The notes under the pieces: model-generated | Database searches by the model: none | Told to the model about the DNA's origin: nothing | Seen by the model: the letters and a program-made list of their open reading frames with translations, nothing else | Shown: piece by piece, positions 3,307 through 56,212 of the stretch | How positions within the stretch are numbered: the stretch's first letter is position 1 | Layout: each line of letters begins with the position of its first letter | Origin: Litorilinea aerophila | GTDB lineage: Bacteria; Chloroflexota; Anaerolineae; Caldilineales; Caldilineaceae | Assembly (NCBI GenBank): GCA_945897075.1 | Contig: CAMDEX010000005.1 | Location: forward strand, 1-64,000 | Direction: 5' to 3' | DNA: 64,000 nt | Made by a program: the position numbers and the translations under genes

Positions 3307-3330
3307 TGCTGTCTCCTATCTGGGAAATTA

Positions 3331-3397
3331 GGGACTGGGGATTGGAGACTGGGGATCGGAAAGTGTACCCAATCCCCAGTCTCCAATCCCCAGTCCC
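3331..3397. repeat. STRR-like inverted repeat between proB and proA
   Basis: Two perfectly complementary 26-base arms (3331-3356 and 3372-3397) with a 15-base loop. Each arm is made of CCCCAGT/TCCAAT-type heptamers, the same wording as the cyanobacterial STRR family CCCCART. It would form a strong hairpin in the proB-proA transcript. There is no T-run, so simple termination is not assured. Confidence 0.85.
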
Positions 3398-3406
3398 CGA
3401 TCTCCT

Positions 3407-14486: not shown

Positions 14487-15647
14487 ATGTCCCACTACCG
14501 CACAGCCATCATCGCCTGCGGGATGATCGCCCGGGTTCACGCGCGCGGCTGGCTCGGCGTCCCCGGGCAGCCGACCCGTATCGGCGCGATTGCCGACACC
14601 AACCCGGACGCCCGGCGCGAATTTGGCGACTTTTTTGATGTGGACGACGAACAGCGCTACGCCGACTACCGGCAGATGCTGGACAAGGAGCGCCCAGACT
14701 TTGTGGACGTCTGCTCCTGGCATCAGCAGCACGCCGAGATGGTCATCGCGGCCGCGGCCCGCCGCCCCAAAGCCATCATCTGCCAGAAGCCGATGGCGGT
14801 CGATCTGGGCGAGGCCGATGCGATGCTCACCGCGTGCGAGCGCAACGGCGTCAAACTGATCATCGCCTACCAGCGCCCCCACCACGCCGCGTGGATGAAA
14901 GCCCGCGATCTGATCCGCCAGGGCGTTATTGGCAAAATCACGCAGATTCAACTGGACGACGGCGGCAATCTGCTCAACACCAACTCGCACAACATCCGTC
15001 TGGCCCTCTTTTTGATGGACGAACCCCAGGTGGAGTGGGTACTGGGCGGGGTGGAGCGCACCACCGACCGGGTGGAGCGGGGCTTGCCCGCCGAGGATGC
15101 CTGTCTGGGGCTGGCGGGCTGTGACAACGGCGCGACGATTCTGATCCAGGGCAGTCTGGTGCAGGGGCTGGGCCAGGGCTGCCGGGTGATCGGCACAGAG
15201 GGGATGATGGAGTTCGACACCACCAGCCACCCGGACGACGTAATCCCCAGCGACGCGCCGATGTATGCGCCCGAAGGCCCCTCGGCCCGTTACAACTACG
15301 AGATCGGCGTTGTGCGCTATCTCAACGCCACATCAAACGGCTGGCAGATCGTGGATGCGCCCTGGTATGACTGTTGGAGTCACCAGTGCCAGGAAGCGAT
15401 TGATTGGGTGGAAGGGCGCATCGAAAAACCGATCAGCGGTGCGGAGCGGGCGCGGGCCGTGCAGGAAGTGATGATGGCTCTCTTCGAGTCGGCGCGCAAA
15501 CGCCAGCGCATCTATCTGCCGCTGAGGACAAAAGTCAACCCGCTGAAGTTGATGGTGGAGAACGGCGACCTGCCCATCGAGTGGCCGGGGCGCTACGAAA
15601 GCCGCTCGCGCATCGTGCGCGGCGAGGCGATGTCCTGGCACGGGTAG
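14487..15647 (+). CDS. Gfo/Idh/MocA family NAD(P)-dependent oxidoreductase
   Basis: A 386-residue sugar-type oxidoreductase. The Rossmann fold begins TAIIACGMIARVHARGW (residues 5-21). The CQKPMAVDLGEADAML stretch near 98 matches the KP motif region between the two domains; the motif has Gln in place of the common Glu. The second half is the alpha/beta substrate domain, ending with a WPGRY segment. Substrate is not predictable from this alone. The ATG follows CAGGAGAAT. It is 100 bases downstream of the peptide-binding protein on the same strand and may be cotranscribed, but function does not link them clearly. Confidence 0.9.
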   Translation: MSHYRTAIIACGMIARVHARGWLGVPGQPTRIGAIADTNPDARREFGDFFDVDDEQRYADYRQMLDKERPDFVDVCSWHQQHAEMVIAAAARRPKAIICQKPMAVDLGEADAMLTACERNGVKLIIAYQRPHHAAWMKARDLIRQGVIGKITQIQLDDGGNLLNTNSHNIRLALFLMDEPQVEWVLGGVERTTDRVERGLPAEDACLGLAGCDNGATILIQGSLVQGLGQGCRVIGTEGMMEFDTTSHPDDVIPSDAPMYAPEGPSARYNYEIGVVRYLNATSNGWQIVDAPWYDCWSHQCQEAIDWVEGRIEKPISGAERARAVQEVMMALFESARKRQRIYLPLRTKVNPLKLMVENGDLPIEWPGRYESRSRIVRGEAMSWHG

Positions 15648-15653
15648 GAGGAA

Positions 15654-15713
15654 ACCAATCAACCAATGAACCAATCAACGAATGTTAGTTGATTGGTTCA
15701 TTGGTTGATTGGT
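15654..15713. repeat. inverted repeat of ACCAATC/G words between convergent genes
   Basis: Two perfect 26-base arms (15654-15679 and 15688-15713) with an eight-base loop. Each arm is three ACCAAT(C/G)A units. It lies exactly between the stop of the oxidoreductase (15647) and the stop of the convergent lipoprotein gene (15720), so it may act as a two-way terminator. Confidence 0.85.
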
Positions 15714-15719
15714 CTTCCC

Positions 15720-17024
15720 TTACGGCATCCCCACATCCACCGAAATGCGGTCAATGTAATTGTTTGCCACCCCGACAAATTCGTGGATCAGCCCGCCCCA
15801 CCAGAAGTTTGTACCGACGGGCGGGCGCTCGTCCATCACAATACAGCCGCTCACCCGCCCGGCCTTGCCCGGCAGCAGATACCACTGCTCCACGCCGTCA
15901 ATCACGCGCTTCTCCAGTTCGTCCTGGCTGCCGATGGCGAAACGGTAGGGAAAATCTACGCCGGTGGTGTCGAAGTTGATGCCGAAGCGCCAGACACCCG
16001 CCTGTTGAAACCATTCGGTGTGGCCCTGACCGGCCAGCGTATTGTAATTCTCGCTGAAGCGGTACTCCTGCCCCGGCCAGGGACCCGTCGTGCGGATGGG
16101 CACTGTCCCTTCATTGACCACCACCGCGCTGAAGCAGAGCTTCTCGCCCAGAGGCACGCTGACCACCCGGTTCATCTCCGCGGACCAGTCAATCTCGCCC
16201 TGGGCCACATCGGCGCGGGGCTTGCCCCCTTCTTCAATCGTCAGTTCGCTGACCACCCGCACCCGGTTGCCCGCCCGGTCGCGGGCCTCCCCCACAATCT
16301 GATACGTCCCGTCGGGCGGCGGCTCCGCGTTGAGGTCCACTCCCCCCTCGTAGCGGTATTCGTGATAGCCTTTTTTCTCCGGTTTGACTACATTCGGCCC
16401 CTCGGCGATGTGGTACTTGAAATCGGGGTTGTCCGGGGCGATCAGAAAGACCTGCACCGCGTCCACATCCTTCGTCAGGTAGTAGCTGATGCTTACCCAA
16501 TCGTCGCGCAGACCGTCCTGGTTGGGGCGAAAAATTTGGGGCACGACCGCAAAGTTGTGCAGTTCGGGCACTTGCGTGTCGCCGTTTTGCAGGGTAATCT
16601 GGCCGCCGACAGTCTGGCGGCTGCCGTTCTCCTCCACCGCTTCGATCACCCAGCGGTAGACGCCGTCGGCCAGCACCCGGCTGAGAATCTCTACCCGCCC
16701 CCCAACTGTCTCCACCACCTGCGGTTCGTCCACCACACCGCCCCAGAGAACGTCGTAGTCACCGGGGGAGCGGCGGCGCTCCTGGCGAAAGTAGAAGCGT
16801 TCGCCGGCCGCGTTCTCAAAGTAGATGCTCACATCCGCCGAGCGGCGCAGGCTGTAGTGGATGGCCGTGGCATCGGTATCGCCGTCGGCGTTGGGCGAAA
16901 TGATTTCCGGCGCGACGGTCACGTTGCGCAGGAGCGGGCCATAGCTCAGATCCAGCCGTCCACAGCCGGCCAGAAGCAGAAGAAAAAATGTCAACCGCAA
17001 AGGGCGCAAAAGAAAAGGGCGCAT
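15720..17024 (-). CDS. lipoprotein with FlgD-like Ig modules
   Basis: A 434-residue exported protein starting MRPFLLRPLRLTFFLLLLAGC, a clear lipoprotein signal with lipobox LAGC. Two modules open with EIISPNADGDTD (about 42) and IFRPNQDGLRDD (about 160), the calcium-type loop plus Ig strand seen in FlgD-like Ig domains, each followed by YSLRRSADV- or YYLTKDVDA-type strands. The last part (about 290-434) is beta-rich and unrecognised. Upstream codons are open but correspond to repeat DNA, so the inner ATG is chosen. Probably a surface or sorting-associated lipoprotein; no enzymatic motif is seen. Confidence 0.75.
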   Translation of the reverse strand: MRPFLLRPLRLTFFLLLLAGCGRLDLSYGPLLRNVTVAPEIISPNADGDTDATAIHYSLRRSADVSIYFENAAGERFYFRQERRRSPGDYDVLWGGVVDEPQVVETVGGRVEILSRVLADGVYRWVIEAVEENGSRQTVGGQITLQNGDTQVPELHNFAVVPQIFRPNQDGLRDDWVSISYYLTKDVDAVQVFLIAPDNPDFKYHIAEGPNVVKPEKKGYHEYRYEGGVDLNAEPPPDGTYQIVGEARDRAGNRVRVVSELTIEEGGKPRADVAQGEIDWSAEMNRVVSVPLGEKLCFSAVVVNEGTVPIRTTGPWPGQEYRFSENYNTLAGQGHTEWFQQAGVWRFGINFDTTGVDFPYRFAIGSQDELEKRVIDGVEQWYLLPGKAGRVSGCIVMDERPPVGTNFWWGGLIHEFVGVANNYIDRISVDVGMP

Positions 17025-17094
17025 TTTCACTACCGAATCGTCGCTAAAAGGCAGTTTCTCAACTGCTGCCGAAGTGGGAAACTTAACCAGGAAG

Positions 17095-17153
17095 GCACAA
17101 AGACACAAAGAAGAGAAGATATTTTTTCTTTGTGTCTTTGTGTCTTCGTGGTT
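17095..17153. repeat. CACAAAGA-type inverted repeat
   Basis: Octamer words CACAAAGA on one arm and TCTTTGTG on the other, flanking a T-rich centre. It fills the gap between the stop of the DegT aminotransferase (17154) and the lipoprotein gene. The same words recur at 42991-43063 and 57191-57282. Confidence 0.8.
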
Positions 17154-22701: not shown

Positions 22702-22728
22702 GTACGTCGGACTGACAGTCCGACGTAC
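22702..22728. repeat. perfect GTCGGACTG palindrome (family B half-unit)
   Basis: GTACGTCGGACTG-A-CAGTCCGACGTAC, a 27-base palindrome in the gap between the GT2 gene and the DegT gene (22646-22865). It shares the core GTCGGACTG with the longer elements at 46612-46665 and 47565-47621. Direct repeats of about 23 bases (CGGCGGACACCG...) flank it at about 22676 and 22760. I see no gene in this gap. Confidence 0.85.
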
Positions 22729-29232: not shown

Positions 29233-29545
29233 GACGGGAATCTCCTGTGTAGGGAGGATTAATTTGTCATTGTGGGTAAAACGTAAAACGTGAAACGTGA
29301 CAAGCGCAAGTGTGTTGAACGCACTCACGTTTCACGTTTCACGTTTCCGGGATGCCCGCACAGGCGCAAGGGAGTCGTTTCCTCCCCCGGCGCGGGCTAT
29401 CTAAGCGCGAGCAGACCACCGACGGCAGAGCCGACTGTGGCAAAGACGCAATTGAAAGGATGCCAGCGCGCTTGTGTTTTACACATAAAAGCAGTATATC
29501 ACAAAATTCCTGGATGTCTACAAAAAAGAGAAAGAAGTTCCTTCA
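29233..29545. other. 313-base leader region of leuS with ACGTGAA repeat
   Basis: No gene is visible. It holds the inverted repeat at 29281-29347 close to the leuS start and, further upstream, a minus-strand TATACT at 29493-29498 with a weak TTGTAG 19 bases before it, a possible leuS promoter. I looked for T-box landmarks of a tRNA-Leu-responsive leader and did not recognise any. Confidence 0.35.
29281..29347. repeat. ACGTGAA-type inverted repeat upstream of leuS
   Basis: The left arm has ACGTGAAACGTGA words and the right arm has TCACGTTTCACGTTTC, around a 25-base centre. The same words recur at 34937-34988 and 38990-39046. Confidence 0.85.
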
Positions 29546-34035: not shown

Positions 34036-34067
34036 AGAAAACTCCTGTTGTGGGGGAGAACACGGAG

Positions 34068-34131
34068 ATAGAACACGGATTTCGGAATTGACGAATTATC
34101 TGATCCGTCAATTCCGAAATCCGTGTTCTAT
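34068..34131. repeat. perfect inverted repeat carrying the BtpA-like gene's stop codon
   Basis: Perfect 26-base arms (34068-34093 and 34106-34131) with a 12-base loop. The TAG of the BtpA-like gene lies inside the right arm, and the left arm is 32 bases before the Hyi-like start. Confidence 0.88.
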
Positions 34132-34907
34132 TTCTTTACCGCTTGCATAAACTTCTTCACTCGCTCCACATTGACCGCGCCGCCCCGCCCGCCGTCCTCG
34201 AACGCGCCGCCGACGAAAGCGCCGTCGGCCACGGCCAGGTAATGGGCGATATTCTCGGCGTTGGTGTAGCCGCCGATGACAACTGCCAATTGGGGCGCGG
34301 CGGCTTTGACCTGCGCCACCCAATCCAGCCCGGTTGTTAGGTCGGGATGGGCGATGCCCACCGCGTCCACCCCGGCAAAGGCCGCGCTCTGGGCCAGCTC
34401 ACCCAGGGGCTGCTCGCTGTGGAAGTGCATCGAACCGATCTCCGCGATCAACTGCACCTTCTGCGCGCCGATCTGCCGCCGGTAGTTGAGAATCCCATAG
34501 GGATCGCCATCAATCCTGCCGCTGGGGGTTTCGGTACTGCCGAGAAGCACAGCACAGCGCACAAACGAACCGCCGCAGATGTGGGCAATGGCAAGCGATG
34601 CCCGCAGATCGTTGCGCAACACCTGCACGCCGATCGCCAGCCGGTCGCCCACCGCGTCCACCACCGCGCGGGTGGTATCGGCAAAGGCTGCTGCCACGAC
34701 CGGGTCTGCCGCGCCGTTGGGGAATACGCGGTCATCCCGGTTCTGGATCAGTCCGCCGTGCGCGCCGCCCTCGGCCAGGGCCAGCGCGTCGGCCACAGCT
34801 TTGGCTTTGACAGCAGCGTAATCACCCTTTGCGCCGTAATAGGGCGTGCCGGGCAGCGGGCCGATGTGGATCATTCCGATAATGGAGGAGGAGAAGGAGA
34901 GAGCCAT
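34128..34907 (-). CDS. BtpA/SgcQ family protein
   Basis: A 259-residue TIM-barrel protein of the BtpA family: MIHIGPLPGTPYYG at the start (the family signature), GGAHGGLIQNRDDRVF near 46, and VGIAHPDLTTG then VIGGYTNAENI toward the end. Members include photosystem I biogenesis protein BtpA and SgcQ, encoded in sugar-utilisation operons; the enzymatic role is not settled. It lies between the ABC permeases and the Hyi-like gene on the same strand, which fits the SgcQ-like, carbohydrate-related branch. Confidence 0.9.
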   Translation of the reverse strand: MALSFSSSIIGMIHIGPLPGTPYYGAKGDYAAVKAKAVADALALAEGGAHGGLIQNRDDRVFPNGAADPVVAAAFADTTRAVVDAVGDRLAIGVQVLRNDLRASLAIAHICGGSFVRCAVLLGSTETPSGRIDGDPYGILNYRRQIGAQKVQLIAEIGSMHFHSEQPLGELAQSAAFAGVDAVGIAHPDLTTGLDWVAQVKAAAPQLAVVIGGYTNAENIAHYLAVADGAFVGGAFEDGGRGGAVNVERVKKFMQAVKK

Positions 34908-40492: not shown

Positions 40493-40558
40493 CCTCTGCG
40501 CCTCTGCGTCTCTGCGGGAGAATTAATTTCCTCTCGCAGAGACGCAGAGACGCAGAGA
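40493..40558. repeat. CCTCTGCG octamer inverted repeat
   Basis: Arms of CTCTGCGTCTCTGCG and CGCAGAGACGCAGAG around a T-rich centre, in the gap between the glycohydrolase and PfkB genes. Confidence 0.85.
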
Positions 40559-41752: not shown

Positions 41753-43080
41753 ACCCGCCCGCGCCGCCAGAGCAGGACGCCCGCGCCGATCAGCAGGGGT
41801 AGCAGAGAAAAGGCATAAACGATGCGCCGGTCAACTGCCCGAATCGTTCGAATCTCCCGGCTGCTGCCCGGCACAGCCTGGCCGTCCGCGGCGATCAACT
41901 GGACGCGATAGGCGTTCTGCCCCTCCTCAACCGGGATGGCATAGCCGTAGAAGCTGGGCGACTTCTGCGTGGCCGGGTCAAACGCTTCGATCTGATAACC
42001 GAGCGACGCGCCGGGCAGTTGGCGCACAAAATAGGGCTGATTGGCTATCCCGGCCCCTGTCTGGTCCTGGCGCAAGAGTTGCAGTATTGCCCCGGCGTAG
42101 GGCGTCGTGTGTACCCAAACGTAACGGTCGGCGCGCAGGCCGCTGGCTTGGGCGTCAATCATCCGTCTGTATGCCAGCTCATTCACCTCAAACTCGGCGA
42201 AAGGCTGGAGGTAGAAGGTGGAGCCGGGCAAGGCGTAGACGGCGTTGCCGGGGTCGTTGCTCTGCTCCGGCACAGTCCATTTGCTGGCGGGCATCACACT
42301 GTAGCCGACTCCGTAGCGGCGGGGCGCAAAGGCGCGTAGCTGCTTGCGGCTGGTCGGCTGCTCGCTGCCGTCGGGCCGTTCCAGCCAGAGCGTGTAATCG
42401 CCCACAGGCAGGTTAAGCACAAATGCCTGCTTCACCTCTGTACTGTAACTGGTAAAGGGCGGCAGAGGCGGCGGTGGGCCAGCGGGAATCGGCAACTTTT
42501 CGCCCTTTGTGGCCGCCTGGGCCGCCGCGGTCAGCGCGGCCTGATACTCCTGCTCCAACTGGAATTGGGCGTGCAGAGCCGCGGCATAGGCTTGGCGGGC
42601 CTGGTCAAAGGCGGCGTACTGGGCTTGCGCCTCTGCGCCGCTGTGCAAGGCAACTGTCTCGGCTGGCGCGTCGCCATCAAATTGGATGACGTATGCGGTG
42701 AGCGCCAGCCGTTGCGTCTGGCCCGCGCTGTCACGCAGCGCCAGCGTCCCCGTCACCAGTTCGTTGCGCGCCAGCCAGTCGGCCAGCAGCCGGTTGGTGA
42801 TCGGCCAGTCGTAGACGAGTGTGCGGCGCGGGGCCAGCACGTGGCTTGCGTCCGCCAGCAGATAGAGCGTTTCGCTGTCGGGCGGATAGAAAGTGCTTTC
42901 GTATTGCACGCCCGCAAAAACCGTCGTGGCCCAGACAAAAGCTGCGCGCCGCTCCGGGGATTGAGCCGCCGCGGGCAGCGCCGATAATAACCACAAAGAC
43001 ACAAAGACACAAAGAAAATAGAAATTTCTTCGCTGTTTCCTTTGTGTCTTTGTGTCTTTGTGGTTCGTTTGACTATTCAC
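41740..43080 (-). CDS. exported, membrane-anchored protein of an ABC-2 exporter operon; signal peptide encoded by a repeat
   Basis: A 446-residue protein I cannot assign to a family. It starts at GTG 43080, which overlaps the TGA of the permease (GTGA). The signal peptide RRNFYFLCVFVSLWLLSALPAAA is encoded by the CACAAAGA/TCTTTGTG inverted repeat at 42991-43063. The body has a coiled helix rich in Ala/Gln (about 150-200), proline-rich linker and beta-rich stretches with YTLWLERPDGSEQ; a single C-terminal helix (about 418-436) with a Arg-Arg tail anchors it. It is the third gene after an ABC ATPase and an ABC-2 permease, so it may be their cargo or outside partner. Confidence 0.75.
   Translation of the reverse strand: MNSQTNHKDTKTQRKQRRNFYFLCVFVSLWLLSALPAAAQSPERRAAFVWATTVFAGVQYESTFYPPDSETLYLLADASHVLAPRRTLVYDWPITNRLLADWLARNELVTGTLALRDSAGQTQRLALTAYVIQFDGDAPAETVALHSGAEAQAQYAAFDQARQAYAAALHAQFQLEQEYQAALTAAAQAATKGEKLPIPAGPPPPLPPFTSYSTEVKQAFVLNLPVGDYTLWLERPDGSEQPTSRKQLRAFAPRRYGVGYSVMPASKWTVPEQSNDPGNAVYALPGSTFYLQPFAEFEVNELAYRRMIDAQASGLRADRYVWVHTTPYAGAILQLLRQDQTGAGIANQPYFVRQLPGASLGYQIEAFDPATQKSPSFYGYAIPVEEGQNAYRVQLIAADGQAVPGSSREIRTIRAVDRRIVYAFSLLPLLIGAGVLLWRRGRVVNA
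42991..43063. repeat. CACAAAGA-type inverted repeat inside a coding sequence
   Basis: Left arm CCACAAAGACACAAAGAC and complementary right arm ending TCTTTGTGG. It lies wholly within the first 30 codons of the exported protein gene, starting 17 bases after its GTG. Confidence 0.9.
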
Positions 43081-44988: not shown

Positions 44989-45180
44989 CGGAATCGTCGG
45001 TTGCTTTATTATAACGGTGCGGCGCGGGGTGTCAAACGGCGGAGAGACAGGAGGACAGGACTTACGCAGTTACTCCTCGGAACGCCAGCATCCTGCTGGC
45101 TGCCGCCAGGGATGGCGGTGTTCCCGGCTGCATAAATCCTGGGAGAAATGGTTTCGGCTTCTGCTGGCTGCGTGCGCTCT

Positions 45181-45215
45181 CAGAAGTTCGACTTTTATCA
45201 AAAGTCGAACTTCTG
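45181..45215. repeat. palindrome family A, copy 1
   Basis: CAGAAGTTCGACTTTT-ATC-AAAAGTCGAACTTCTG, perfect 16-base arms. It ends 23 bases before the CDF start codon and abuts its promoter. An almost identical copy lies inside the helicase gene (48551-48585). Confidence 0.92.
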
Positions 45216-45238: not shown

Positions 45239-46615
45239 ATGAACCACAACCACCGCGCCATTGAGCGCGTTCTGCTCATCACATTTGCCCTCAACCTCCT
45301 GGCCACCGCGGCCAAACTGGGCGTTGGCATCTGGACAGGCGCGCTCTCGCTGATCGCCGACGGTCTGGACACCCTCTTTGATGGCCTCTCCAATGTGGTG
45401 GGGATTGCGGCTGTGCGCAAGGGCAGCCAACCCCCCGACGCCGATCACCCCTACGGCCACCGCAAATTCGAGACACTGGCCGCGCTCCTCATCGCCACGC
45501 TGCTCTTCATCACCGCCTGGGAGGTGGCAACGGCGGCCATTGACCGCCTGCGCCATCCCCAGATGCCCCTTGTCAATCTGTGGAGTATCCTGGCCCTGGC
45601 CGCGGGCGGGGCCATCCAGGGCTGCACCGGGCTGTGGGAGATGCGGCAGGGGCGCCTTCTGGGCAGCGAAGTGCTGGTGGCCGACGCCCGCCACACCATC
45701 GCCAGCCTCTACGTCAGCTTCGCCGTCCTCTTTGGCCTGGGGCTGGTCTGGCTGGGCTATGGCTGGGCGGATCCGCTGCTGGCCCTGCTCGTGGCCGCTG
45801 TGATTGCCAGCATCGGCGTCGAGACGCTTCTGGAAAACATCCCCGCGCTGGTCGATCAGGCGACGCTGGACCCGGCCAGCATCGCCGCAGTGGTAGCCGA
45901 CGTGGCCGGGGTGGAGAGCTTCCACCGTATCCGCAGCCGGGGCGCGGCCGACGACGTAGCCATTGACCTGCACGTGCGCGTGGATCGCCGTCTTTCGATG
46001 CAGGCCGCCAACGCCATCGCCGACGAAGTGCGCCGCCGTCTGCTCGCCCTGCCCGGCGTGACCGACGTGACCGTTCACGCCGAAGCCCAGGGCGGGCCAG
46101 AGAGCGCGCTGGAATTGCAGCAGGCTGTGGCTCTGGCTGTCGGGGAAGAAGGATTGGCCCTGCACGAACTGTGGGCGCAGCAGGTGGAGGATCACATCAC
46201 CCTGCACATACACCTGGGGGTAGACCCCAACATCTCTCTGGCCGAGGCCCACGATCAGGTAGACCGGCTGGAAAGCACCATTCGCAGCCGCCTGCCCCAG
46301 GTGATTGCCGTTCACAGCCACATCGAGACAGCCAGCGCCGATGTCCTGCCCTCTTCCCGTGTCAGCCGGGGGCTGCAAGAACGGGTGGAAGCAGTCGTCC
46401 TCAGCGCCGCCCAGAACATCCCCGGACTGACCGATCCCCACGATATTCAGGTGCGCCAGGTGGAGGGGCAGCTTTTCATCAGCGCCGAAGCCCTGGTGGA
46501 CGGCACGCTCTCCGTCAGCGCGGCCCACACCCTAAGTACGGAGCTACAAAACGCTGTGCAAGCCGCCGTGCCCAATGTGGGCGAGGTGCTGGTTCATTTG
46601 GAGCCATTGCCGTAA
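45239..46615 (+). CDS. cation diffusion facilitator transporter with three C-terminal domains
   Basis: A 458-residue CDF/ZT metal exporter (Zn, Fe, Mn or similar; driven by proton antiport). Helices fill residues 10-205; metal-site motifs are LSLIADGLDTLFDGLSN (about 36-52, Asp-rich instead of the usual His), DHPYGHRKFETLA near 67 and VADARHTIASLY near 144. Typical family members have one cytoplasmic ferredoxin-like domain; here three related units follow (about 210-285, 290-370, 375-457), each with a GV(x)DVTVHAE/VIAVHSHIE/GEVLVHLE-type closing strand. Probably leaderless. Its stop codon lies in the left end of a palindromic element shared with the convergent helicase gene. Confidence 0.93.
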   Translation: MNHNHRAIERVLLITFALNLLATAAKLGVGIWTGALSLIADGLDTLFDGLSNVVGIAAVRKGSQPPDADHPYGHRKFETLAALLIATLLFITAWEVATAAIDRLRHPQMPLVNLWSILALAAGGAIQGCTGLWEMRQGRLLGSEVLVADARHTIASLYVSFAVLFGLGLVWLGYGWADPLLALLVAAVIASIGVETLLENIPALVDQATLDPASIAAVVADVAGVESFHRIRSRGAADDVAIDLHVRVDRRLSMQAANAIADEVRRRLLALPGVTDVTVHAEAQGGPESALELQQAVALAVGEEGLALHELWAQQVEDHITLHIHLGVDPNISLAEAHDQVDRLESTIRSRLPQVIAVHSHIETASADVLPSSRVSRGLQERVEAVVLSAAQNIPGLTDPHDIQVRQVEGQLFISAEALVDGTLSVSAAHTLSTELQNAVQAAVPNVGEVLVHLEPLP

Positions 46616-46665
46616 GTCGGACTGGTAGTCCGACCAGCGCATGTCGGACTACCAGTCCAACTTAC
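46612..46665. repeat. palindrome family B between convergent genes, holding both stop codons
   Basis: Arms GTAAGTCGGACTGGTAGTCC and a nearly exact complement (one mismatch) ending CAACTTAC; each arm contains its own small palindrome GGACTGGTAGTCC. The TAA of the CDF gene (46613-46615) and the TAA of the helicase (46662-46664) lie at its two ends. Confidence 0.9.
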
Positions 46666-48791
46666 AATAACTCTTCCAGCCTTGCCCGCAACCCGTAGGT
46701 CGGAATGACCACCCGCGCCGCCTGGTAGAGTTGCTTAAATGCAGGCAGATCGATCCGGTCAATGACTGCTTGGCGGGCGATAGCTGGGGGCAGTAGGCTG
46801 TGGAAGCGGCCCAGTTCCAGCAGAGGTTCCACGCGGGGCAGCAGCCGGTGCAGCGCGCGTTGGGGCAGACCCGCATCCCAGGCAGGCAAGGACGACAGTG
46901 GGCCAGGCAAGTAGAGACAAAATTCGTTGACCGCCAACACAGATCCCCCTTCTCCGTCGAAGTAACCGTCCAGCATCTCGGCCAGCAACGCGCCGTAAAG
47001 ATCGCCCCAGAAGTGAAAGAGCCACATCCCCTCGGCCAGGGGCACGGAGAGGAGCAGATCCTCGGCCAGCCCCAGCAGCGCGGCCACCGCCCGCCCCGTC
47101 TCCAGCGGCACAGCAAAGGGCGTCGTGGCGAAACGCAGTTCGTCGTCCACTGGTCGCCCGTCCTTGCGCCGCACACCCACCCGGTAGCGATCCCGCCAGA
47201 CCACCTCTAGGATGTGACCGCCCAGCCGCAACGTCTCCCCTTCCACCTTCGAGCGGGCCACCGTCGCCAGCGTGCGCCCGGAGAAGGCGTCTACCAGCAG
47301 CAGGGGTAGAGGATCGCCGCCGATGTTGGCATAAATCTCGAACTTGTCCACCAGTTCGTCCAACTTCTCCGCGGCCCGCCATTCCCCCAGCCGACCGGCG
47401 CGCAGATAGCCCAGGCGGGCCAGATGGGTGAGGATGGCGCGCAGGCTCTCGTCGTCCACCTCTTCCGGCGCGGCCCGGCGCAGATCAGCCAGACGGATGC
47501 CGCCGGTGGGGCTTTGGGCCAGAATGCTGAAGCTCTGCTGCACCAGCACTGACGGCAAGAAGTTGTAGGTCGGACTGGCAGTCCGACTGATTTCGCCGGT
47601 CGGACTACCAGTCCGACCTACGGTTTCGGCGATCAGCGCCTGAAAGCGTATCTCTTCCAGCGCGGAGCGGGCCAGACAGAGGACACGGGTGACGCCGGTG
47701 CGCCGTCCGCCCCGGCCAATCCGCTGCTGAAACGAGGAGAGCGACGGGGGCGGGCCGATCAACGCCACTTCGTCAATGCTGCCGATGTCAATGCCCAGTT
47801 CCAAAGTGGAGGTGCTGACGCAGATGGCGACCGCGGCCGCAGCAAAGCCCTGCTCCACCTCCAGACGCAGAGCCGTGTCCAGATTCGAGTAGTGGGTGAA
47901 GAGGGCGCTCTCGAAGGGCAGATTACCGCGCAGAAAGGCGGCGGTCTGCTCCACTTCGCTGCGGCTGTTGCAAAAAATGAGCGACTTGCGCACGCCTCCC
48001 TCGCGCGTGGCGCGCAGGGCCAGGGCCATCACCAGATCGTCCAGCCCGTGCAGCGGCCAGATGTCGGCGTCCAACTCGCGCCGGCCAGGGACGCTCACAA
48101 TTTGCGGTGTACCCCCACCCGGAGCAGTAAGATAGCGGGCGGCGATACCCTCCGGGTCGGGGACGGTGGCAGAGAGGGCGATGCGTTGCAGGTACACGGC
48201 TGGCTGCCCCGTCTGCTGCTGGTGATATGTGCGGATGTTTTCGATGCGGCGCAGCAGACAGCGCAACTGATCGCCGCGCGGCCCGCCGTCCAGCAGGTGA
48301 ATCTCGTCCAGGACAATTGCCTGTAACTCTGCCAGCAGGCGGGGCGCACGGGTCAACAGCGAGTCGGTGGATTCGGGGGTAGTGATGAGTACCGACGGCG
48401 GGTTTGTGGTGGAGACCGGGCCGGTGTCGCCGCTTTTCATCGCAAAGGAGATTTCCAACTGTTCCAGCGGCAGACGCAGCCGCTCGTAGAGGTCGCGCAC
48501 CAGGGCACGTGTGGGGCAGAGGTAGAGGATGGCAAGGGAAGTGCGATTTTCAGAAGTTCGACTTTTGACAAAAGTCGAACTTCTGGTATCTCGAAAGCAA
48601 TGACGCTCAATGAGGGGGGCAATGGCGGCTTCGGTCTTGCCGCCAGCCGTGGCGGCGATGACGAGAGTGCTGTGACCGTCCAGAATGGGCGGGATGGCGG
48701 CTTCCTGCACAGGGGTAAAGCTGCCGTGGCGGGCGAAGAAGGGCGTGTACGTGCGCGGCAGGCGGGATTTGAGGGTGTAGGGGGTGGTCAT
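46662..48791 (-). CDS. Lhr/BrxHI-like DEAD/DEAH-box helicase with two in-frame palindrome insertions
   Basis: A 709-residue superfamily 2 helicase. Walker A is AATAGGKTEAA (46-56), motif Ia CPTRALVRDL, Walker B VLDEIHLLDGGPRGDQL near 160, motif III SAT near 206 and motif VI QRIGRGGRRTG near 357; the C-terminal 330 residues are an Lhr-like extension. This type includes BrxHI of type 2 BREX. Two stretches look foreign: residues about 67-83 (palindrome A, 48551-48585) between motifs I and Ia, and about 390-409 (palindrome B, 57 bases = 19 codons). Both keep the frame. It ends the minus-strand defence island. Confidence 0.88.
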   Translation of the reverse strand: MTTPYTLKSRLPRTYTPFFARHGSFTPVQEAAIPPILDGHSTLVIAATAGGKTEAAIAPLIERHCFRDTRSSTFVKSRTSENRTSLAILYLCPTRALVRDLYERLRLPLEQLEISFAMKSGDTGPVSTTNPPSVLITTPESTDSLLTRAPRLLAELQAIVLDEIHLLDGGPRGDQLRCLLRRIENIRTYHQQQTGQPAVYLQRIALSATVPDPEGIAARYLTAPGGGTPQIVSVPGRRELDADIWPLHGLDDLVMALALRATREGGVRKSLIFCNSRSEVEQTAAFLRGNLPFESALFTHYSNLDTALRLEVEQGFAAAAVAICVSTSTLELGIDIGSIDEVALIGPPPSLSSFQQRIGRGGRRTGVTRVLCLARSALEEIRFQALIAETVGRTGSPTGEISRTASPTYNFLPSVLVQQSFSILAQSPTGGIRLADLRRAAPEEVDDESLRAILTHLARLGYLRAGRLGEWRAAEKLDELVDKFEIYANIGGDPLPLLLVDAFSGRTLATVARSKVEGETLRLGGHILEVVWRDRYRVGVRRKDGRPVDDELRFATTPFAVPLETGRAVAALLGLAEDLLLSVPLAEGMWLFHFWGDLYGALLAEMLDGYFDGEGGSVLAVNEFCLYLPGPLSSLPAWDAGLPQRALHRLLPRVEPLLELGRFHSLLPPAIARQAVIDRIDLPAFKQLYQAARVVIPTYGLRARLEELL
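47565..47621. repeat. palindrome family B inserted in the helicase gene
   Basis: GTAGGTCGGACTGGCAGTCCG, a 15-base centre and the complementary right arm ending CCGACCTAC; 57 bases in all, exactly 19 codons. In the protein it reads VGRTGSPTGEISRTASPTYN. Confidence 0.92.
48551..48585. repeat. palindrome family A inserted in the helicase gene
   Basis: CAGAAGTTCGACTTTT-GAC-AAAAGTCGAACTTCTG, differing from the copy at 45181 only in the loop. In the protein it contributes the RSSTFVKSRTSE stretch. Confidence 0.92.
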
Positions 48792-54798: not shown

Positions 54799-54848
54799 GT
54801 AACGCAAGCTGTTAGCTTGCGCCGGCGCAAGCTAACAGCTTGCGTTAC
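54799..54848. repeat. perfect 50-base palindrome behind the second BrxD-like gene
   Basis: Two complementary 25-base halves, the left one starting GTAACGCAAGCTGTTAGC, with no loop. It begins one base after the stop of the BrxD-like gene (54850) and ends 12 bases before the 95-residue gene's start, so it overlaps that gene's upstream region and may separate the two transcription units. Confidence 0.92.
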
Positions 54849-56147: not shown

Positions 56148-56212
56148 GGGGGCTGGGGACTGGGGATCGGGGACTGGAGATTCCCAATCCCCAATCCCCA
56201 GTCCCCAATCCC
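56148..56212. repeat. CCCCAAT/GGGGACT inverted repeat in the BrxD-like operon
   Basis: Heptamer words of the CCCCART type on both arms, between the 294-residue gene (stop at 56214) and the BrxD-like gene. Same words as in the proB-proA gap. Confidence 0.85.

Follow-up and report, generated by a model that had tools for sequence, protein, structure and literature searches.

Two palindromic segments are carried in frame by the gene for an Lhr-like helicase, and we consider it probable (at about five chances in six) that both are copies of mobile miniature palindromes placed in, or partly replacing, two loops of this functional enzyme. The window, i.e. the whole 64,000-nucleotide stretch of DNA that was analysed, belongs to a metagenome-assembled genome (MAG; 397 contigs, 95% complete, 8.8% contamination), hereafter G000, and its helicase was compared with those of the congeners G001, G002, G005 and G006 (83-86% identity). 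The features concerned are the following.

46662-48791, minus strand: gene for an Lhr-like SF2 DEXH helicase of 709 amino acids, host of both elements (open reading frame; Pfam DEAD and Helicase_C)
48551-48585, minus strand: site A, an in-frame family-A palindrome encoding RSSTFVKSRTS(E) (genome copies, codon alignment)
48537-48551, minus strand: candidate degenerate third arm of the family-A repeat, GAAAATCGCACTTCC, which is GAAAGTCAAACTTCT in G005 (codon alignment)
47565-47621, minus strand: site B, an in-frame 57-base family-B REPIN made of two inverted GTAG-REPs and encoding VGRTGSPTGEISRTASPTY
47599-47621, minus strand: first REP of site B, a GTAG tag plus GTCGGACT-GGT-AGTCCGAC
47565-47587, plus strand: second REP of site B in the opposite orientation, a GTAG tag plus GTCGGACT-GGC-AGTCCGAC
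46612-46665, no strand: intergenic family-B REPIN between convergent genes
45181-45215, no strand: intergenic family-A palindrome, within a stretch missing from G001, G005 and G006
22706-22724, no strand: further family-B core copy within the window

The coordinates, reading frame and peptides of the two in-frame palindromes, as given in the original prediction, were all confirmed. The loop with site A runs from helicase motif I (GKTEAA) to motif Ia (CPTRALV), and the arms of its palindrome (48551-48567 and 48569-48585) are 100% complementary; site B, with arms (47565-47587 and 47599-47621) that are 96% complementary, adds (V)GRTGSPTGEISRTASPTY(N) to the protein. The helicase motifs are intact, including GKTEAA, DEIH, SAT and QRIGRGGR, and dN/dS between congeners is 0.11-0.20; as judged from its sequence, the gene is under purifying selection and functional. 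Among NCBIfam models the Lhr-type helicases are nearest, with scores far under their cut-offs, and the closest solved fold to the AlphaFold2 model is that of Mycobacterium smegmatis Lhr (5v9x). The model has an overall pLDDT of 74.5, and the segments below 50 include residues 69-82 and 394-407, which coincide with the A and B inserts and where the low values may partly stem from a shallow alignment. Both insert-bearing loops are probably variable and solvent-exposed, the exposure being read from the low confidence of the loops in the model.

Both segments belong to repeat families, as had been predicted. Family A is a near-perfect palindrome of 33-39 nt with 23 copies in its own genome at up to 3 mismatches (reversed control, 0), and the family-B core GTCGGACTNNNAGTCCGAC occurs 166 times at up to 2 mismatches (reversed control, 6), numbers that in both families greatly exceed chance. 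The intergenic copies postulated 2-3 kb away do exist, but at other distances: the nearest family-A copy (45181-45215) is 3.3 kb away and the nearest family-B copy (46612-46665) 0.9 kb. The former is the last of several palindromes in a stretch of about 170 bases (about 45050-45215), and the latter provides both convergent stop codons, the TAA of the efflux gene falling in its left GTAA tag and that of the helicase gene in its right tag. Further inverted repeats in the window, at 3323-3405, 15644-15723, 17085-17153, 29279-29346, 34065-34134, 40494-40557, 42989-43065 and 56149-56212, are built of the short units CACAAAGA, GGGGACTGGGGATTGG, AACGTGAAACGTGA and CTCTGCGTCTCTGCG and apparently represent more palindrome families.

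The basic unit of family B is a GTAG tag (or GTAC or GTAA) followed by an 8-bp stem and a 3-nt loop, stem and loop being set by the search pattern. Among 258 core ends the tags are GTAG in 101, GTAC in 40 and GTAA in 27, and at least one GTAG or GTAC tag is present on 110 of 129 unique cores; the commonest arrangement is head-to-head with the tags outside, found in 50 of 120 neighbouring pairs when overlapping loci are kept in. By these sequence features family B is a GTAG-tagged REP organised in head-to-head pairs (REPINs). It varies between 0 and 353 copies among congeners (353 cores in G002) and is at control level in nearly all other genera.

All seven congeners carry family A, at 3-91 copies, as do two other genera with 29 and 8 copies, and it was found in none of the remaining sampled genomes of the family; many Caldilineaceae MAGs also contain exact copies, as do a few that bear the label of another phylum, for which binning errors are possible. 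No conserved flanking tetranucleotide was detected around 97 copies, so family A has neither a GTAG nor a CGTC tag. Since the 35 bases of the palindrome are not divisible by three, the inserted unit cannot have been exactly 35 bases long; GAAAATCGCACTTCC at 48537-48551 is probably part of the same repeat-derived stretch, an assignment made from the sequence. In a congener-like MAG (ACE_CHL8; loci L138-L141, L146, L155 and similar) family A is embedded in a larger repeat with the ends GTCAACAAAGTT and AACTTTGTTTCC, which resembles a composite MITE.

Codon alignment of the congeneric helicases placed A at the same position in G000, G001 and G005, and B at the same position in G000, G001, G002 and G006; B is absent from G005, G002 has a different palindrome in loop A (CTCCCTCCCCCAAAGTGGGGGAGGG, "family C"), and the G006 helicase is cut by a contig end at site A. 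A third loop, after RYL (site C), has family-C palindromes in G001, G002 and G006 and none in G000 and G005, while at the same site the helicase of G018, from a different genus, bears yet another palindrome. Neither A nor B was detected in the helicases of the genera represented by G020, G015, G013, G018 and G010. The insertions are therefore genus-specific and were gained and lost within the genus. The same residues recur in congeners and not in other genera, the alignment bearing out lineage-specific, repeat-derived segments, and because of this distribution the insertions predate part of the genus; the refuting condition named in the original prediction thus gave a divided outcome. The sharing of residues at the same sites by congeners is also what ancestral protein sequence, or a chance resemblance, would give, but the other genera lack them, for each segment there is a congener without it, and the DNA comes from high-copy families with near-zero controls; this explanation was rejected by the codon alignment of congeners and other genera and is extremely improbable.

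The two sites differ in how the protein changed. At site A the loop measures 24-30 amino acids with the element and 14-19 without it, and family A has, on this alignment, lengthened its loop. At site B the loop measures 25-28 amino acids with the element and 21-29 in element-free homologues, so that the element there mostly replaced loop residues. Simple insertion at site B is weakened by this similarity in length, and a clean insertion was not demonstrated there.

Several places in and next to the gene hold different palindromes in different species. In the gap that separates the efflux gene from the convergent helicase gene, G000 and G006 have the family-B REPIN, G002 has a GTAG-tagged GTGCGGTT palindrome, and G001 and G005 have a ATTGGTTGATT-type palindrome; the pattern of differing palindromes at one spot is thus repeated at helicase loops A and C and in this gap. 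It is conceivable, though doubtful, that some loops and gaps are re-usable docking sites where palindromes of unrelated families insert, disappear and give way to one another, because an HUH-type transposase spares the target and can return to it; if so, REPINs would be an ongoing source of loop turnover in working enzymes.

The arms of the elements change together between species. At site A, TTCGA/TCGAA in G000 corresponds to TCCGA/TCGGA in G001 and G005; at site B the arms co-vary as GTCGAACT..AGTTCGAC in G001 and G002; and likewise a GTAACGCAAGCTGTTAGCTTGCG.. palindrome at 54799-54848, conserved in position in G001, G002 and G005, shows paired changes in G005. Such co-change could have arisen because one family member replaced another, by gene conversion, by template switching, or because the hairpin itself is under selection. 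The last would suit elements whose hairpins are kept for a role in nucleic acid (mRNA structure or transcription pausing), the peptide being incidental. This is very unlikely: whole elements are missing from congeners with an intact gene, and arm co-change would also follow from family-member replacement, gene conversion and template switching within the palindrome.

The distribution of copies over genes and gaps was examined in 697 kb of G000 and 927 kb of G002, with coding fractions of 84% and 80%; genes other than the helicase were called with a home-made simple codon-usage caller. The G000 sample contains 109 hairpins, 86 of them intergenic, 11 across gene ends and 12 in genes (shuffled sequence, 0). 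Family-B clusters lie in genes in 4 of 44 cases in G000 and 3 of 32 in G002, about 10% against 80-84% coding DNA; for family A the counts are 5 of about 12 in G000 (two near N-termini) and 10 of 76 in loci from other genomes. All these shares are far under the coding fraction, and the in-gene copies look like tolerated survivors.

Nine independent in-gene family-B sites were identified, in genes for the helicase, a DNA methylase (two sites), a methyltransferase, a prolyl oligopeptidase, a siroheme-type NAD-binding protein, MurE, an SNF2-type protein and one unknown protein. All nine read GTA GGT CGG ACT NNN AGT CCG ACC TAC. In 106 readings of single intergenic units this frame is always open (the other frames in 46 and 60), in line with the prediction of a sequence open in at least one frame, and the probability of nine in one frame, weighted by openness, is 0.005. 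Core spacing is divisible by three in 7 of 7 in-gene multi-core elements versus 11 of 26 intergenic pairs (Fisher P = 0.007). We attribute both results to the survival of frame-keeping, hydrophilic insertions; a target preference combined with codon usage could contribute to the frame bias. Counting in-gene copies and their frames, as originally proposed, upheld a single frame for family B, but the elements mostly avoid genes. Target duplications, which were also to be looked for, were not seen: inspection by eye of the flanks of the nine sites revealed no direct repeat. A pyrimidine directly precedes the tag at all nine sites, at the third base of a codon. In the essential murE (G000 contig C177, L017 362-1987) the in-frame element follows directly on the ATP-binding helix, and, outside G006, the congeneric orthologues are shorter along the matched part by about 8-12 codons.

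The frame that is open in every single intergenic unit and used at every in-gene site, together with several hosts that handle DNA (helicase, SNF2 protein, DNA methylases), could suggest the protein-coding specialisation argued for the Rickettsia palindromic elements (RPE), in which elements are adapted to genes or the peptides help the helicase. About 90% of family-B copies lie outside genes despite the 80-84% coding DNA, however, in-gene family-A sites are spread over three frames (6, 5 and 2), and presence among congeners is patchy, making such a specialisation quite unlikely.

A link to a REP-associated tyrosine transposase (RAYT) was found for family B in a congener. On contig C393 of G002 (L269) family-B REPINs stand on both sides of a Y1/RAYT gene, whose product scores 77.1 bits against NCBIfam REP_Tyr_transpos (cut-off 80). 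Next to it, a DNA methylase gene (L353 6185-8905) has two in-frame REPINs, and its G003 homologue has family-B copies at matching places. Among the seven Y1_Tnp matches of the 397-contig MAG itself, none is closely related to the family-B RAYT, the nearest being 36% identical. Beside RAYT genes of the genus stand other palindromes, such as GTAACGCAAGCTGTTAGCTTGCG, whose family flanks RAYT genes in G002, G005 and G006; in G000 a RAYT gene on contig C382 (L094) is flanked by AAACCGAGTTTCTT..AAGAAACTCGGTTT palindromes that look similar to the one at site C of the G018 helicase. Family A was considered as a RAYT-flanking repeat and rejected: it occurs in the loci of two RAYTs (L257 and L266), never as a flanking pair, and no RAYT among the loci inspected could be assigned to it.

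The lack of an assignable RAYT for A and of a close family-B RAYT in the genome itself, and the different palindromes at one site in different species, are consistent with copies that spread without a transposase, through recombination or template switching from one palindrome to another. We consider this unlikely, as the swapped families have no common sequence for homologous exchange, a family-B RAYT cluster exists in G002, and copy number varies from 0 to 353 among congeners. We propose instead that mobile palindrome copies entered the helicase loops once the genus had diverged from the rest of its family, and that family B was most likely moved in trans by a RAYT (a Y1 HUH transposase whose substrate is folded single-stranded DNA). 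Insertion would probably be blind to genes and most in-gene hits would be lost; survivors would be those that keep the frame, with an element length that is a multiple of three and an open frame, and that sit in loops tolerating a Gly/Ser/Thr/Pro/Arg-rich linker, a matter of tolerance rather than benefit. Family A, a dispersed perfect palindrome, would have shared the same fate.

The genus offers natural before-and-after pairs (three helicase loops that can be compared across five congeners, with at least three palindrome families among them), through which both the mere tolerance of in-gene REPs and the re-use of the same sites become testable. Even essential enzymes such as MurE bear REP-derived residues, and annotators of these genomes should be aware that stretches of the forms GRTxSPT and RSxTFxKSRTS come from repeats.

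Most closely related among known systems are the intragenic GTAG REPs treated in Di Nocera 2013 (PMC3733652), a study that defines GTAG REPs and describes REPs inside open reading frames, including those of repair genes and helicases, and different REPs at about one site of Xanthomonas recB; GTAG-23 of T. roseum was already known, and the REPIN concept (PMC3116915) and the TnpA-REP and 23-nt S. maltophilia REP (PMC8266576) have likewise been described. Family B resembles GTAG REPs in its GTAG tag, a short-looped stem within their 6-13 bp range, head-to-head pairs, mostly intergenic location, RAYT-flanking position and occasional presence in genes, and the 23-nt S. maltophilia REP in its 8-bp perfect stem and 3-nt loop. 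It differs from known GTAG REPs as a new stem family in Caldilineaceae-type Chloroflexota with tags that are often GTAC or GTAA; here, moreover, the genome itself is without a close cognate RAYT, and several unrelated palindrome families occupy three loops of one gene across congeners. No study specific to REP or REPIN elements in Chloroflexi was found among the papers searched. The likeness to Rickettsia elements that had been drawn at the outset applies to the dispersed, in-frame character of the repeats and not to their class, since B, as a GTAG REP/REPIN whose cognate RAYT occurs in a congener, falls in the REP-RAYT class. As in the palindromic elements of Rickettsia and Wolbachia, palindromic repeats lie in frame in functional genes with same-site orthologues, and some orthologues of R. 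japonica genes with RPE-4/6/7 have no element or other RPE groups nearby (PMC3767692). RPEs are 105-146 bp long (PMC2229807), and RPE-1 to RPE-3 are often in open reading frames; the elements here, set apart by description, measure 33-57 bases, with about 10% of family B in genes and a RAYT-type GTAG tag. They also recall the intragenic MITEs NEMIS, ERIC and RU-2 (PMC2229807) as small non-autonomous repeats fused in frame to open reading frames, although those MITEs exceed them in length and have terminal inverted repeats and target duplications. REP elements inside genes were thus already known, and the helicase presents a clear case with an unusually clear comparative record rather than a new kind of element.
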